From IMG/VR virus record IMGVR_UViG_3300043100_000068, positions 1-39,694 of that record: a stretch of DNA of 39,694 nucleotides. One strand, 5' to 3'. Below the pieces are notes generated by a model. The model was not told the DNA's origin and searched no databases. It saw nothing but the letters and a program-made list of their open reading frames with translations. This DNA is from a virus. The translations under genes and the position numbers were made by a program. Shown here one piece after another: positions 24,481 to 33,065 of the stretch (its first letter is position 1; each line of letters starts with the position of its first letter).

Positions 24481-25126
24481 CCACGCCCCCGCCCCCACCA
24501 CCGTCGCACAACGCGGCCGAGGTTGTAATGGCTCCTCGGCTCTGCATTCGGAGAATAACACCGTCTCACGGATCACCTGTGCGCCGCTTGCAACAGAAGA
24601 ATACCACTCTGTTGAAAAGCGAAATGGCTTAAATTTTCCTTTTCGGGCGCGGAAGCGCACGACAGCCGTAGGCTGGACCGCACAGAGCGGACAACACGAA
24701 GGGCACGTGACGAGGGAGGGGCTATCCTCTCTGTTCCAGGCACCGAGGGGGCCGACGCCCCTAGCCCTGCCCGGCAGGTCTAGCGGTCGTCCCCCAGCCT
24801 CGGTGCTTGAAGCAGGGGAACGCTCGCTCGACCCACAATGCAAGCAGGCACACGTGTACGTGTGCCTCTGCTGAGGCTGGGTGCGCTTGGCGGAGGCGCA
24901 GGCCCTGTTGGCCTGCTTGCCTCCTCGCCCCCTTGCTTCGCCGTCCTTGCGTCTGTGCTAATCTCGCAGGCGCGCCCGCGTGCCTGGAGGACGTGAAAGC
25001 GTGGTTCATGCTTGCGTTGCTCTCAGCCTGCCTGTAGCGGAAAGGCTAAAGATAGTGTAGTCTCGTTGCAGACGTGAGAACGACGAGCGTTGCCCGCTTG
25101 CGTTGCTCACGAACCGGGAGTGAACC
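24481..25126. other. Gene-free region with strong secondary structure
   Basis: About 646 bp with no convincing gene on either strand. It holds a short AT-rich stretch (24595-24640), a structured block (24737-24881, described separately), and two copies of GCTTGCGTTGCTC (25011-25023 and 25098-25110). A leader containing ACGAACCGGGAG lies just before the ATG at 25127. Candidate locations for an origin of replication or a regulatory RNA. Confidence 0.5.
24737..24881. ncRNA. Candidate structured RNA or DNA element with alternative pairings
   Basis: Stem P1: 24737-24748 with 24798-24809 (12 bp, one wobble), enclosing hairpins P2 (24749-24760, GGGC-CGAC-GCCC) and P3 (24761-24783, eight pairs around one mismatch). 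Alternative stem P4: 24793-24801 with 24873-24881 (9 bp, CCCAGCCTC/GAGGCTGGG), enclosing P5 (24846-24867, nine-bp stem AGGCACACG). P1 and P4 share bases 24798-24801 so they exclude each other. No known riboswitch or tRNA pattern is recognised. Confidence 0.4.
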
Positions 25127-25279
25127 ATGTCTGAAGCGGACTACGAACGCGCGTTAGCGCGACTAGCACGTAGCGTACGCCGTTTGTACGCAAGCGGCCT
25201 ATCCGAGAAACTCATCACGCGTTGGTATGACGCGAGCATGAACGCGCTGAACGCGCGGCGCGACCGGGAGGGAGGCTAA
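25127..25279 (+). CDS. Small basic helical protein, 50 residues
   Basis: ATG 25127 with GGGAG 6 nt upstream; TAA 25277-25279 overlaps the ATG of the amidoligase gene (TAATG). It starts MSEADYERALARLARSVRRL and is a basic helix throughout. Leading gene of the amidoligase operon, so it could be a regulator, a partner or even a modification substrate; none of this is shown. The leader ACGAACCGGGAG is repeated before the gene at 27598. Confidence 0.6.
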   Translation: MSEADYERALARLARSVRRLYASGLSEKLITRWYDASMNALNARRDREGG

Positions 25280-26631
25280 TGCTTCTCCTTCGCCCCGCAG
25301 GCAACCCTGATAGCCCGCTCACCGAATCCGGCGGAGAAGTCAACCGCGACAATTGCGAGTGTTCGTGCGAATTTGACCATTGTCGTGATTCATGTGAAAC
25401 CTGCATACGCCGCAGGCGCTACTACGACGGGGAACGCTGCGACACTTGCACCTTTGGGGAATGCGGATGCCAAGACGATTGCTCCTGCGATTATTGCACC
25501 TGCGAACCGGAAAACGGCGAAGAAGGCTTGCATCCGGCTTCGACCGATGTCCTTCGCATCTTCGGTGCCGAGGTCGATAGCAACGAACCTGGGGCGGTTC
25601 TGCTGGGGGCTGAGGTGGAATTGCATATCCCTGACGGGGACACCCAAGACGCTGTTGACGGCCTGCGGGCAGCATTTGCCGCATCACCCTCCTTCATCGG
25701 GAAAGAAGATGGGAGCATCGGGAACGGCATTGAGATGGTGACGTTGCCCTTGACCCTGGAACAGCATGGGGACCTTGGGAAGGCACTTGCGGCCCATTGG
25801 TTCAGGACGATGGAGAAAACCGCGTCCTGCGGCATGCATGTCCATATCGGCAGAGCAAGCTTTGACACCGAGAACCATCAGGACCGCTTCGCCGAATTCT
25901 TCGGCTTGCACGGCGGAAACCCCGATTGGAACCTGTTTCTTGATCGGCTGTTTCGTCGCGCTTCGAACGGCTTTTGTCGGCGGGAAACCAAAGGCGACGA
26001 TATGCGCCGAGAAGGCAAATACGCCGCCGTCAACTTCTCCAAGCGCAACACCCTGGAAGTCAGAGGGTTTTGGACATGCCAATCCCTTAGCGTGTACATG
26101 GCCAACCTTGAGCTCGTGCTCGCGGTTCGCAATGCAACCGCCAAGGGCTATAGCCGAATCCATGCCTCCTCTCCGACGGCCTTCATGGCATGGGTGGCAA
26201 GCAATGCCGCCACGTACCCGCACCTGGCAAAGCGTCTGACCCTTCGGCATGGGGATTCAGGGAGCGAGCTTTTCGCCCCGTGGTTGCCTGGGCATGGAAC
26301 CGAGGAGCGACCCAACCTCTACGGCATTTCCGGCCCGAACGTGCCGCGCGTTCATGCGTTCTTGCGCGCATTCCGAGCGGGCACGATTCAGGAACGCGAG
26401 GCATCCGCAGGTGTGTGGACCGAACCATTGTCGGCAGCAAAAAACCGTGCCTTCATCGCGGCCCGAGCGGCCGGGCGTGTCGGCGAATGGAACCAGGCAT
26501 GGGAAAATGCGAACTGCGCTGCCTGCCCGATCATCGCGCTGGTTGCCGACGACCTCATCTCGCGGGCGGAGTTTACCCTCCTCACATCCGCGTACGACGC
26601 CTTCATGCCGGAGGTCGCACCATGTGTGTGA
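25279..26631 (+). CDS. Amidoligase (COOH-NH2 ligase) with Cys-rich N-terminal domain
   Basis: A 450-residue protein. Residues 26-75 hold 14 cysteines, in patterns such as C-E-C-S-C and C-S-C-D-Y-C-T-C, a probable multi-metal domain. The catalytic part shows G-A-E-V-E (110-114), K-E-D-G-S-I (142-147) with E-M-V-T-L-P (152-157), and C-G-M-H-V-H-I (184-190), the ordered G-x-E-x-E / D-G-S / E-x-[VT]-x-P / C-G-x-H-V-H motifs of the amidoligase superfamily (glutamine-synthetase-like fold). These enzymes form amide bonds between carboxylates and amines using ATP. The next gene is a class II glutamine amidotransferase. Substrate unknown; peptide or cell-envelope modification is inferred from the family. 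Confidence 0.75.
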   Translation: MLLLRPAGNPDSPLTESGGEVNRDNCECSCEFDHCRDSCETCIRRRRYYDGERCDTCTFGECGCQDDCSCDYCTCEPENGEEGLHPASTDVLRIFGAEVDSNEPGAVLLGAEVELHIPDGDTQDAVDGLRAAFAASPSFIGKEDGSIGNGIEMVTLPLTLEQHGDLGKALAAHWFRTMEKTASCGMHVHIGRASFDTENHQDRFAEFFGLHGGNPDWNLFLDRLFRRASNGFCRRETKGDDMRREGKYAAVNFSKRNTLEVRGFWTCQSLSVYMANLELVLAVRNATAKGYSRIHASSPTAFMAWVASNAATYPHLAKRLTLRHGDSGSELFAPWLPGHGTEERPNLYGISGPNVPRVHAFLRAFRAGTIQEREASAGVWTEPLSAAKNRAFIAARAAGRVGEWNQAWENANCAACPIIALVADDLISRAEFTLLTSAYDAFMPEVAPCV

Positions 26632-27500
26632 TTCTTGCCTGCGGCCCCGGGGTGCCGCTTCCCCCTCCCGAGCATATCGTCAACGCGAATCTCGATAACC
26701 CGCACGGGTGGGGGGTGAGCATCAACCTGCCCAAAGCATGCAGGGTTCATCGCGGCCTGTCACCCGTCGGCACCTGTCGGCGGTGCCGTAGCAGGTCACA
26801 GGTTGCCGTCATGCGGGGGTTTGATACCGGAGCACTCCTCGATGCGGTCGATCGTTTGGAGGCGCTGCGAACGCCTGCGTCAAGCTTGGTGGTTCATTGC
26901 CGGATCGGCACGGGAGGGACCAACACCCTCGATAACACCCACCCGTTCCCGATTACCGACAAGCTTGCTCTGTTTCATAACGGCATCTTCTCGGAAGCAA
27001 CCGTGCCGACGGAAACCAACCCAAAGAAACCGGATAGCTACCACCTGGCAAACGCGATAGCGCCTGCGGTACGACACAACCCCTCATGGATTCATGCCCC
27101 CCTGTTCACGACATGGCTTGACGCCCTCTGCCGACAACCGGCCTACCAAAGCAAAGTGCTCCTCTTGGATGCCGTCTATGGGCAGGTTCTGTACAACCGG
27201 ACGGCCTGGGTTGACGGGGGCGACGGGCGTCTCTATAGCAACGACGGCCCCCTCTGGAGATGGATCGAACAGACGGGACCCTCCCCGTCTGTCGATTGGG
27301 TCAACGAGGACATCGGGACGGCGGGCTATGCCTTCGACCCCTTTGACGACGAGACAAGCGACCTGGGATTCGCGACCTGGAAGGACGATCACGGTCGCTA
27401 CTCACAACGCCGTCGGCTTGAAGACCTTGAGGAGGAAGCCGAAGCCGCCTTCATGCGGGAGAACGAGGACCTCGTTGCCTGCGTCCGGGGCTATGGCTAA
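26622..27500 (+). CDS. Class II glutamine amidotransferase-like protein
   Basis: A 292-residue protein from ATG 26622, overlapping the amidoligase end by 10 nt. Met1-Cys2 (MCVILACGPG) supplies the N-terminal nucleophile of the Ntn class II GATase. Downstream H-C-R-I-G-T-G-G...N-T-H-P-F and L-A-L-F-H-N-G-I-F match the conserved R-x-x-x-x-G / N-x-H-P / H-N-G set. It would release ammonia from glutamine, presumably supplied to the upstream amidoligase. The C-terminal ~100 residues are acidic and without a known domain. Confidence 0.8.
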   Translation: MCVILACGPGVPLPPPEHIVNANLDNPHGWGVSINLPKACRVHRGLSPVGTCRRCRSRSQVAVMRGFDTGALLDAVDRLEALRTPASSLVVHCRIGTGGTNTLDNTHPFPITDKLALFHNGIFSEATVPTETNPKKPDSYHLANAIAPAVRHNPSWIHAPLFTTWLDALCRQPAYQSKVLLLDAVYGQVLYNRTAWVDGGDGRLYSNDGPLWRWIEQTGPSPSVDWVNEDIGTAGYAFDPFDDETSDLGFATWKDDHGRYSQRRRLEDLEEEAEAAFMRENEDLVACVRGYG

Positions 27501-27597
27501 CCCCTCGGACGATACAAACCACAGGGGCGGCCTCAAAACCGCCCTACAGAGCCTTCTAGGCCCCTTTGCGGGCCATTCTACGAACCGGGAGAACCCC

Positions 27598-27789
27598 ATG
27601 AAATTCACCCTAACCCTGACGACCGACAACGACGCCTTCCAACCGGAACCGGGCGACGAAGTAGCCCGAATCCTGCGGGAGGTTGCATCCCGTGTCTTGC
27701 ATGATCGCGATTGTACGGGCAACGCATGGTCAGGAACCGTCCGCGACATCAACGGCAACGCTTGCGGCGCATGGAGTCTGCGGCCATGA
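27598..27789 (+). CDS. Small conserved phage/plasmid-type protein
   Basis: A 63-residue protein with GGGAG upstream. It begins MKFTLTLTTDNDAFQPEPGD, continues E-V-A-R-I-L-R-E-V and ends with D-I-N-G-N-A-C-G-A-W. The M-K-x-T-[LI]-T-[LI]...A-F...E-[VL]-A-R-I-L-R ... D-x-N-G-N-x-x-G pattern recurs in small phage and plasmid proteins of unknown role. Downstream partner overlaps by ATGA. Confidence 0.7.
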   Translation: MKFTLTLTTDNDAFQPEPGDEVARILREVASRVLHDRDCTGNAWSGTVRDINGNACGAWSLRP

Positions 27790-28034
27790 ACGACAACGAG
27801 ACCGCCGCGCGTGAACGCTACCGCCTGGCGCAGGCGGCCTATACGCACGCCTTCACGGCAAGCAAAGACGCCTACCTCGGCTACACCCAAGCGAAGCAGG
27901 CACTCCATGAAGCCGTACAGCCGATTGAGGTCGCCTTGCCGAGCATGGTTGCCCGCGTCGCGGAGGCGCTCGTCGAACGGGAAGCGGCCAAGCTTGCCCT
28001 TGCCGAACTGCTTGGAGCCCCTACCGCTTCCTGA
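27786..28034 (+). CDS. Small helical protein at the end of the amidoligase operon
   Basis: An 82-residue protein from ATG 27786, overlapping the previous stop by 4 nt. It is almost wholly helical, beginning MNDNETAARERYRLAQAAYT and with A-L-V-E-R-E-A-A-K-L-A-L-A-E-L near the end. No motif. It ends 7 nt before the stop of the convergent minus-strand gene (28042). Confidence 0.6.
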   Translation: MNDNETAARERYRLAQAAYTHAFTASKDAYLGYTQAKQALHEAVQPIEVALPSMVARVAEALVEREAAKLALAELLGAPTAS

Positions 28035-30138: not shown

Positions 30139-30355
30139 GTTCGTCGCAATAGTGCCACTCCATGACCTCTTCGCGTTCGACCGTCATGTCGTGCGCGGAG
30201 AATCCCTTGAGATACTCGTTCACGAACACCCCGCAGAGAAAGGCGGGAGGATCAGGGACCCCGTCGTCCAGGGGAATCCGTATCGTGAACACCGTCTCCA
30301 TGATCGCCTGCACACGGACGACGCGGGGCTCTCCCGCATGCTCCGGGACACTCAT
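30122..30355 (-). CDS. Small hypothetical protein, 77 residues
   Basis: From ATG 30355, overlapping the nuclease stop by ATGA. It begins MSVPEHAGEPRVVRVQAIME and is strand-rich with an acidic C-terminus ending N-G-A-A. Its last 18 bases plus the overlap (30121-30138) are an exact copy of the nuclease gene end (30351-30368). Function unknown. Confidence 0.6.
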   Translation of the reverse strand: MSVPEHAGEPRVVRVQAIMETVFTIRIPLDDGVPDPPAFLCGVFVNEYLKGFSAHDMTVEREEVMEWHYCDEPNGAA

Positions 30356-30368
30356 GCCGCACCGTTCG
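30351..30368. repeat. 18-bp direct repeat, copy 2
   Basis: Second copy of the element at 30121-30138, at the end of the nuclease gene. Confidence 0.9.
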
Positions 30369-31254
30369 AAAGCACGTGTGAAGGGCAGGAAAGCAAGGGG
30401 CAATAGGCCTTTTGGACCTTGCCGTTGCGAACGGAGCCGCATGCCCACGACGTATTGTCCTCGCGCATCGTCCAGGCGTGCGGAGCGGCGACCGGGCCTT
30501 GCGCATCGGTCGGATCGGTGGCGTACAACGAGCCCCGCAGCGCGTTCTCGACCTGCTCGCGCATCGACTGCCAGGGCACCTGATCGTAGCGATAGGCCTT
30601 CCCGCCCAGGTCCAACTCCCACAAGCCTGCTCCGACCGCATCGAGCGGTTCGGCCAACGCAACCGCCCAGGCGTACGAGGCGACTTGCAGCATGTGGCTC
30701 TCCTTGGGGGGATACTTGGGAGCCCAGCCCTTGCTGTAGCTATAGCCCCAGACCGTGCTCTTCACGTCGATCACGGCGATCTCGTTGCCCTGGGTCGCCA
30801 GCGCGTCGATGTGCCCGATCGCGACCCCCTTGTGCGTCCTCGCGTACTCAATCGCGGCCCCGTGCCCGTCGTCCATCGTGAACAGCTTGCCCTGCATGCC
30901 TTCGTCGGTCATGACCAAGGCGCAGGGGACGTTGCGCTCAAGGCTCGCGTCCTCAGGCAATCCGAGCATGAAGGCGTGCAGCACGAGGTCCTCGGCCTTG
31001 AAGCCCAACTGCATCGCAACGATCCCTTCGCTTGGGGGCAGGGCAAGGGCAAGGTCGGGATAGGGATGCGCCCAGGTCCCCGTCACCACGTCCCAGCGCA
31101 GCGCGGCGGAGGCGTAGCGACGACGAGCCCAGCCGAGCCTATCACACAGGCCCGCCATGTCCCCGCCGATATGCACGAACTCTTCGTCGTGACGCGTTCC
31201 TCGGGCGTGCAGGCGGGCAAGCCCCGCGTCGTAGGCGGCGGACAAGTCGATCAT
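30352..31254 (-). CDS. PD-(D/E)XK exonuclease, Cas4/RecB-like
   Basis: A 300-residue protein with G-H-I-D-A-L (D150), I-D-V-K-S (D163, K165) and a downstream Q190 in K-E-S-H-M-L-Q-V-A-S-Y, the G-x-x-D / D-x-K / Q-x-x-x-Y pattern of the RecB/Cas4 nuclease group. One Cys near residue 37 and three near the C-terminus (W-A-C, C-P-L-L-S-C) resemble the placing of an iron-sulfur cluster in Cas4/AddB, but this is uncertain. Upstream ATGA coupling to the XRE gene. With the annealing protein it would make a two-component recombination system. Confidence 0.7.
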   Translation of the reverse strand: MIDLSAAYDAGLARLHARGTRHDEEFVHIGGDMAGLCDRLGWARRRYASAALRWDVVTGTWAHPYPDLALALPPSEGIVAMQLGFKAEDLVLHAFMLGLPEDASLERNVPCALVMTDEGMQGKLFTMDDGHGAAIEYARTHKGVAIGHIDALATQGNEIAVIDVKSTVWGYSYSKGWAPKYPPKESHMLQVASYAWAVALAEPLDAVGAGLWELDLGGKAYRYDQVPWQSMREQVENALRGSLYATDPTDAQGPVAAPHAWTMREDNTSWACGSVRNGKVQKAYCPLLSCPSHVLSNGAA

Positions 31255-32102: not shown

Positions 32103-33065
32103 ATGGCAAAAGCCAAACTCGTCGAATCCTCGAATCTTCCGACCCTTCGCGCTGTTCCCGTGAGCAACGGGCAGGCCCATGCCGAGGTCGTCCTCGTCAC
32201 TCCCGCGATGGCGTCGGCGCTGCTTGCAAAGAATCCAAAGAACCGGAATATCAAAGCCTGGCGGGTGAAAGCGTTCACCGAAACGATGCAGCGGGGCGAG
32301 TGGCAACTCAACAATGACGCGATCGGGCTTAACGCCATGGGGGAGTTACTCAACGGGCAGCACCGGCTCACGGCCGTGGTTACCTCGGGGTTAGCCCAAT
32401 CGTTCCTCATCGCCTACGGCCTCACCGACGAGTCGCAGCTAACCATGGACATCGGGCAGCGTCGTAACTACGCCGACCACCTCGTCATGCAAGGCCTCGT
32501 CAAGCACGCCGGCAACGTCACCGTGGGGTTACGGGTTCTCCACTACTACCTCCGCACGTACGCCCGAGGAGGGACGAACGGCGACTTTATGAGCGGGTAC
32601 GGCAACAACACCGCCAAGCCGAGCTTTCAGCAGCTCGACACCCTGTTAGCGCAGGTCTGGAGCCCGCTGCAAGAGGGGGTTTCTGCGGCGTCCAAGGCGA
32701 TTCTGCGGTCCAAGTCTGCGCCTGCGCTGCACGGCGGGGTCGGGGCGCACGGCGTCGGGATATTCCTGGCGCGTGAAGGGTTCGCCGACCGCAATCGCGA
32801 CCCGCAGGACTTCGAACGGGGCCTGTTTACCGGGGCGGAGTTGAGCGAGGGCGACCCCCGCTTGCTGCTTCGCGCGTACACCCGGCTAACGAACGGTCGG
32901 GGACAATCCGGCTACGAGGTGCTTGCGTATCTGCACACGGTGAACACGTGGTTTGAGCAAGGCAAACGTCAAGCGCTGCGCATCCAAGATCGCGGCCCGC
33001 TCACGCTGCCCTTCGGCCGGCTGCCCTCGGTGCTGCGGGAGTACGTCGCCAAGGAGCTTGCCTAA
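32103..33065 (+). CDS. ParB/Srx-fold-like phage protein
   Basis: A 320-residue protein. The segment about 48-105 (NIKAWRVKAFTETMQRGEWQ, then D-A-I-G-L-N-A-M-G-E-L-L-N-G-Q-H-R-L-T-A) has the G-x-L-x-D/N-G-Q-H-R-L pattern of a family with a ParB/sulfiredoxin-like fold found in many actinobacterial phages and plasmids. Then M-D-I-G-Q-R-R-N-Y-A-D-H follows, also characteristic. The C-terminal 200 residues are helical. DNA binding or a regulatory enzyme is possible; no characterised activity is known to me. AAAGGA lies 12 nt upstream, a long spacing. Confidence 0.6.
   Translation: MAKAKLVESSNLPTLRAVPVSNGQAHAEVVLVTPAMASALLAKNPKNRNIKAWRVKAFTETMQRGEWQLNNDAIGLNAMGELLNGQHRLTAVVTSGLAQSFLIAYGLTDESQLTMDIGQRRNYADHLVMQGLVKHAGNVTVGLRVLHYYLRTYARGGTNGDFMSGYGNNTAKPSFQQLDTLLAQVWSPLQEGVSAASKAILRSKSAPALHGGVGAHGVGIFLAREGFADRNRDPQDFERGLFTGAELSEGDPRLLLRAYTRLTNGRGQSGYEVLAYLHTVNTWFEQGKRQALRIQDRGPLTLPFGRLPSVLREYVAKELA

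Follow-up and report, generated by a model that had tools for sequence, protein, structure and literature searches.

Glutamine-synthetase-fold ligases that work with class II amidotransferases follow a scheme in which glutamine is split at a cysteine, the ammonia is delivered to the ligase and a carboxylate activated by ATP is converted into an amide. MurT/GatD works in a similar manner: a glutamine amidotransferase of its own feeds a ligase that depends on ATP. The PF12224 (Amidoligase_2) or phiEco32-type COOH-NH2 ligases are said to have been described by Iyer et al. in 2009. Different roles have been suggested for such genes in phages: in PMC10580990, a cell-wall change against superinfection is cited for phiEco32 and secondary metabolism for Marvin, and PMC10945688 suggests nitrogen metabolism for the set of amidoligase, amidotransferase, glutathione synthase and GGCT of Phage-ZRK32. 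No substrate is given in these passages, and no demonstrated substrate for such pairs was found in the papers searched.

The virus record analysed here was taken as a whole, and the window is this entire stretch of 39,694 bases. The recognition of terminase, portal, major head and internal virion proteins, all on the minus strand, indicated a tailed phage. Five consecutive ORFs of 50, 450, 292, 63 and 82 aa occupy 25127-28034 on the plus strand, with the following features:

25127..25279, plus strand: 50-aa ORF immediately before the ligase, its last base being the first base of the ligase start; no known relatives
25279..26631, plus strand: predicted amidoligase, glutamine-synthetase-like, diverged PF12224-type, 450 aa
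25354..25503, plus strand: ligase residues 26-75, a block of 14 Cys predicted to bind metal
25603..26253, plus strand: ligase catalytic core, residues 109-325, model mostly confident
26245..26628, plus strand: ligase C-terminal tail, residues 323-450, absent from the 60 aligned relatives
26622..27500, plus strand: predicted class II (Ntn) glutamine amidotransferase, 292 aa
26772..26843, plus strand: amidotransferase insert of about 24 aa, around residues 50-74, edges approximate
27598..27789, plus strand: 63-aa ORF matching phrog_9027, of unknown function
27786..28034, plus strand: 82-aa ORF (counted from its ATG), no family match, overlapping the 63-aa ORF by 4 nt

Two folds, retained catalytic motifs and a conserved adjacency were computed for the ligase and the amidotransferase, and from these we infer that they would form a two-subunit, glutamine-dependent ATP amidoligase, with a probability of about 0.75 for this activity and complex formation.

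Comparison with described systems

The arrangement of the window pair is found in mycobacteriophage Marvin (gp105/gp106, cluster S) and in relatives such as Tesla, where a ligase with Cys pairs at its N-terminus is followed by a class II amidotransferase. The Marvin-type ligase is 26% identical to the window ligase over the alignment, and 79 nt lie between the Marvin genes, whereas those of the window overlap by 10 nt. Moreover, the Marvin and Tesla ligases, both outside the set of 60 relatives, carry a C-terminal extension of their own, and the C-terminal part of the Marvin-type amidotransferase includes a Cys-rich stretch absent from the window copy. In the Methylophilales phages MEP401 and MEP402 (PMC10580990), the amidoligase and GATase genes also overlap by 10 nt and a small upstream ORF abuts the ligase, as in the window, but their ligase presents a long extra N-terminus with fewer Cys pairs and the upstream ORF differs from the 50-aa ORF. 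Cassettes from IMG/VR (L014-L093 and L175-L191) share with the window the CxxC block, the GS-like core and the adjoining amidotransferase, and differ from it in their regular CxxC spacing, short ligase C-terminus and amidotransferase C-terminus with up to four CxxC motifs. MurT/GatD, a peptidoglycan amidation system (PMC3267633), offers a works-like analogy only, with a Mur-ligase fold and a class I amidotransferase that are not homologous to the window pair.

The first-pass annotation had regarded pairs of amidoligase and amidotransferase as known and had nevertheless raised the idea of an undescribed system. The former statement agrees with the annotation of such pairs in Marvin and in marine OM43 phages (PMC10580990), and the latter is, on the same grounds, not supported.

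Organization of the locus

The reported 10-nt overlap between the ligase (25279-26631) and amidotransferase (26622-27500) genes was confirmed at 26622-26631, as was the presence of three small flanking genes (25127-25279, 27598-27789 and 27786-28034). Each of the five ORFs is preceded by a purine-rich stretch resembling a ribosome-binding site (5/5). Third-position GC is lower in the five cassette genes of the record (0.66-0.73) than in five others (0.77-0.83), a difference that fits separate acquisition, being compatible with it and no proof of it. The vicinity of the cassette yielded no sigma-70-like promoter, the count of terminator-like elements was lower than the shuffle mean, and neither Rfam families nor tRNAs were found in the window. 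The sequence ACGAACCGGGAG is common to 25107-25126 and 27578-27597, the stretches preceding the 50-aa and 63-aa ORFs, respectively. A stem-loop lies at 27525-27544, in the gap that separates the amidotransferase from the 63-aa ORF; it was read on the minus strand, and the inverted repeat is also present on the plus strand. Elsewhere in the window, a 300-aa protein (30352-31254, minus strand) gave a weak PDDEXK_1 nuclease match under the cut-off (E 0.0016), and no close relative of a 320-aa protein (32103-33065) was retrieved in a scan of viral contigs.

Identity and predicted fold of the two proteins

All ligase motifs named in the first-pass annotation were located where expected, with G-x-E-x-E at residue 110, D-G-S at 144, E-x-V-T-x-P at 152 and C-G-x-H-V-H at 184. 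An alignment of the window ligase with 60 relatives revealed that G-x-E-x-E, C-G-x-H-x-H and E-x-R were invariant in the 61 sequences and that the glycine of D-G-S was nearly so; all four motifs are present in the window ligase, which retained the family-invariant residues G110, E112, E114, D144, S146, E152, H187, H189 and R262. Its core motifs are shared with the PF12224/phiEco32-type ligases, and PF12224 was matched by 60 of the 61 aligned members, although the window ligase on its own scored 14.7 bits, below the Pfam cut-off of 22 bits, and was better matched by phrog_16683 (6e-11). A profile built from the relatives, with the window sequences left out, scored it at 150 bits, which places the match beyond chance. 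When residues 101-333 of its AlphaFold model were compared with the PDB, the best match was the YbdK-type structure 1tt4 (Z 12.0, 210 residues, 3.8 Å), followed by plant GCL (Z 11.4) and GS (Z about 11); Dop and PafA, two GS-fold enzymes that have a small protein as substrate, were also among the matches. Confidence, averaged every 10 residues, was 69-96 over residues 101-320 and low in much of the tail. The model supports the glutamine-synthetase-like fold proposed earlier, of YbdK type, for the ligase core. Beyond the core, the tail comprises about 127-128 residues in the window copy versus 1-29 in the 60 aligned relatives, and it had no match in a tblastn search against phages.

The amidotransferase presented the previously listed Met1-Cys2, N-x-H-P (residue 105) and H-N-G (residue 119) motifs, and preserved the family-invariant residues C2, R94, H119, N120 and G121. 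GATase_4 was matched by 49 of the 51 members of its alignment, and a relatives-only profile, again without the window sequences, gave 68 bits, also beyond chance. The AlphaFold model was closest to EgtC (Z 14.1), followed by GlmS (13.2) and PurF (12.2), which supports an Ntn class II fold and the class assigned in the first reading.

Since YbdK and GCL, the nearest solved folds of the ligase, act on small substrates, the pair might instead make or alter a small metabolite of amide or gamma-glutamyl type, aiding the nitrogen economy of the host during infection. Such an auxiliary metabolic role was proposed for a similar gene set by the Phage-ZRK32 authors (PMC10945688) and would be in line with the ATP-grasp protein and gamma-glutamyl cyclotransferase encoded near the pair in one related phage. 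It is possible, if on the unlikely side, for the window pair, beside which neither a GGCT nor an ATP-grasp gene was recognised, the neighbours matching only families of unknown function; moreover, the finger block carried by nearly all of these ligases would be odd for a small-molecule enzyme.

Distribution of the pair

A single-protein scan of viral contigs returned no close relative, but an alignment query did find relatives, at least 403 in one scan and at least 441 in a second. The viral sample consisted of the best 80 (L014-L093) of more than 400 relatives, and the bacterial sample of the best 80 loci (L094-L173), mostly from gut Clostridia. These loci were chosen by similarity to the query, and therefore the counts of pairs and CxxC motifs hold for this family and not for all amidoligases. 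An amidotransferase was found beside the ligase in 77 of the best 80 viral loci, nearly always immediately downstream, and close to it in 72 of the best 80 bacterial loci, several of the exceptions being placed at contig ends. In a further 17 viral loci (L175-L191), both the amidotransferase, one of them a weak match, and the CxxC pairs were present in 17/17. Named phages with the pair included Marvin, Tesla, MEP401/402, an Acinetobacter phage and a Manatee Spring phage. The distances among ligases and among amidotransferases from 48 loci were strongly correlated (r = 0.919, against a maximum of 0.294 in 2000 shuffles), for which shared phage ancestry alone may account.

The idea of a conserved unit was thus borne out by these viral and bacterial counts, and, judged from sequence comparison, the window pair is a real, diverged copy of a widespread kind, with an ordinary architecture, and not a new system.

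At least five separate contigs of Butyricicoccus pullicaecorum DSM 23266 carry the pair (L107, L108, L113, L152 and L162). A WhiB-like gene neighbours the pair in 44 of the best 80 viral loci (L014-L093), which indicates that many of them belong to viruses of actinobacteria.

Cysteine-rich blocks

The 14 cysteines reported for residues 26-75 of the ligase were counted exactly, with three CxxC motifs, and their description as unusual had to be abandoned. At least two CxxC pairs occur within the 150 residues before G-x-E-x-E in 78 of the best 80 viral relatives, and two or more likewise precede this motif in 79 of the best 80 bacterial loci; consequently, relatives as a rule have a Cys-rich N-terminus. 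The block had also been considered as a novelty specific to this cassette, a candidate rejected for the same commonness. Against a profile of the relatives' N-termini, the window block scored 20.3 bits, a value as high as this being obtained in 3 of 2000 shuffles, and its homology to them is likely but weak. Its Cys spacing is less regular than the regular CxxC spacing of the relatives, and it was modelled at very low confidence (pLDDT about 33). Probably, this block is a metal-binding finger that would position the substrate or the partner enzyme.

The window amidotransferase has no C-terminal CxxC, whereas most relatives have two to four. The motif is equally absent from this region in L033, L047, L050, L051, L064 and L078, and since several members are devoid of the finger, it is a common and not a defining feature of these cassettes. 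The insert of about 24 aa contains C52-x2-C55 and has no counterpart in the 24 aligned relatives compared.

The nearest aligned relative is only about 27% identical for each window protein, versus medians of about 33% for the ligase and 36% for the amidotransferase among the others. Together with the missing amidotransferase finger and the irregular Cys spacing of the ligase, this divergence could mean that the window copy, with its catalytic parts intact, is decaying or has been repurposed and no longer works as an amidoligase. However, all invariant catalytic residues are retained, both frames are open and ribosome sites are present, which makes such a fate quite improbable.

Small neighbouring genes

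The first-pass annotation had suggested a search for the same gene neighbourhood in other phages, and had named the 50-residue upstream protein as a possible partner. The pair proved widespread, but the 50-aa ORF had no relatives in any fetched locus, which leaves its partnership unsupported; neither the 63-aa nor the 82-aa ORF had a homologue there (best BLAST E for the three, 0.73). In the best 80 clostridial loci (L094-L173), a DUF960 gene was located upstream of the ligase, within -53 to +380 nt, in 45 cases, and a 96-aa representative matched PF06124 at 4.2e-27. Relaxase, NikA-like and recombinase-like ORFs are often near the clostridial pairs, which, together with DUF960, suggests a three-gene mobile cassette in Clostridia. 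No paper naming both amidoligase and DUF960 was found in the literature search.

The frequency of DUF960, the small ORF abutting the ligase start in the window and in MEP401/402, and the presence of Dop and PafA among the fold matches would all suit a pair that modifies the product of an adjacent gene, a protein or short peptide such as the 50-aa product in the window or DUF960 in Clostridia, with the Cys block as the substrate-recognition domain. This is unlikely, given that the orphan 50-aa ORF has no DUF960 match, that the upstream proteins of the MEP phages look unrelated by eye and that short ORFs are common in phages.

Proposed function

As a two-subunit amidoligase, the pair would operate by splitting glutamine at the Cys2 nucleophile of the amidotransferase, with the released ammonia passing to the ligase through a presumed channel. 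The GS-like ligase would use ATP to convert a substrate carboxylate into an acyl phosphate, to which the ammonia would be added, and a primary amide would result. Given that ammonia comes from the partner, the amidation of an acid is most likely, and not the joining of two peptides. The most likely target would be a peptide or cell-envelope carboxylate, for example in a peptidoglycan stem peptide, and as a last step, which is a guess with less than even odds, the phage would alter the surface of the infected cell. The pair had no match among the PADLOC defence families.

In a broader and more tentative view, these cassettes may constitute a widespread amidation family of mobile elements, in which metal fingers of the ligase, and usually also of the amidotransferase, would steer glutamine-derived ammonia onto a specific macromolecule, a small accessory gene, which in Clostridia would be DUF960 and in other groups a different one, would supply the substrate or an adaptor, and the window copy would represent a variant that has a recognition tail of its own. 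Such pairs are frequent in phages and in the mobile elements of Clostridia, and the conserved finger blocks and the DUF960 neighbour provide testable handles on the amidation target.
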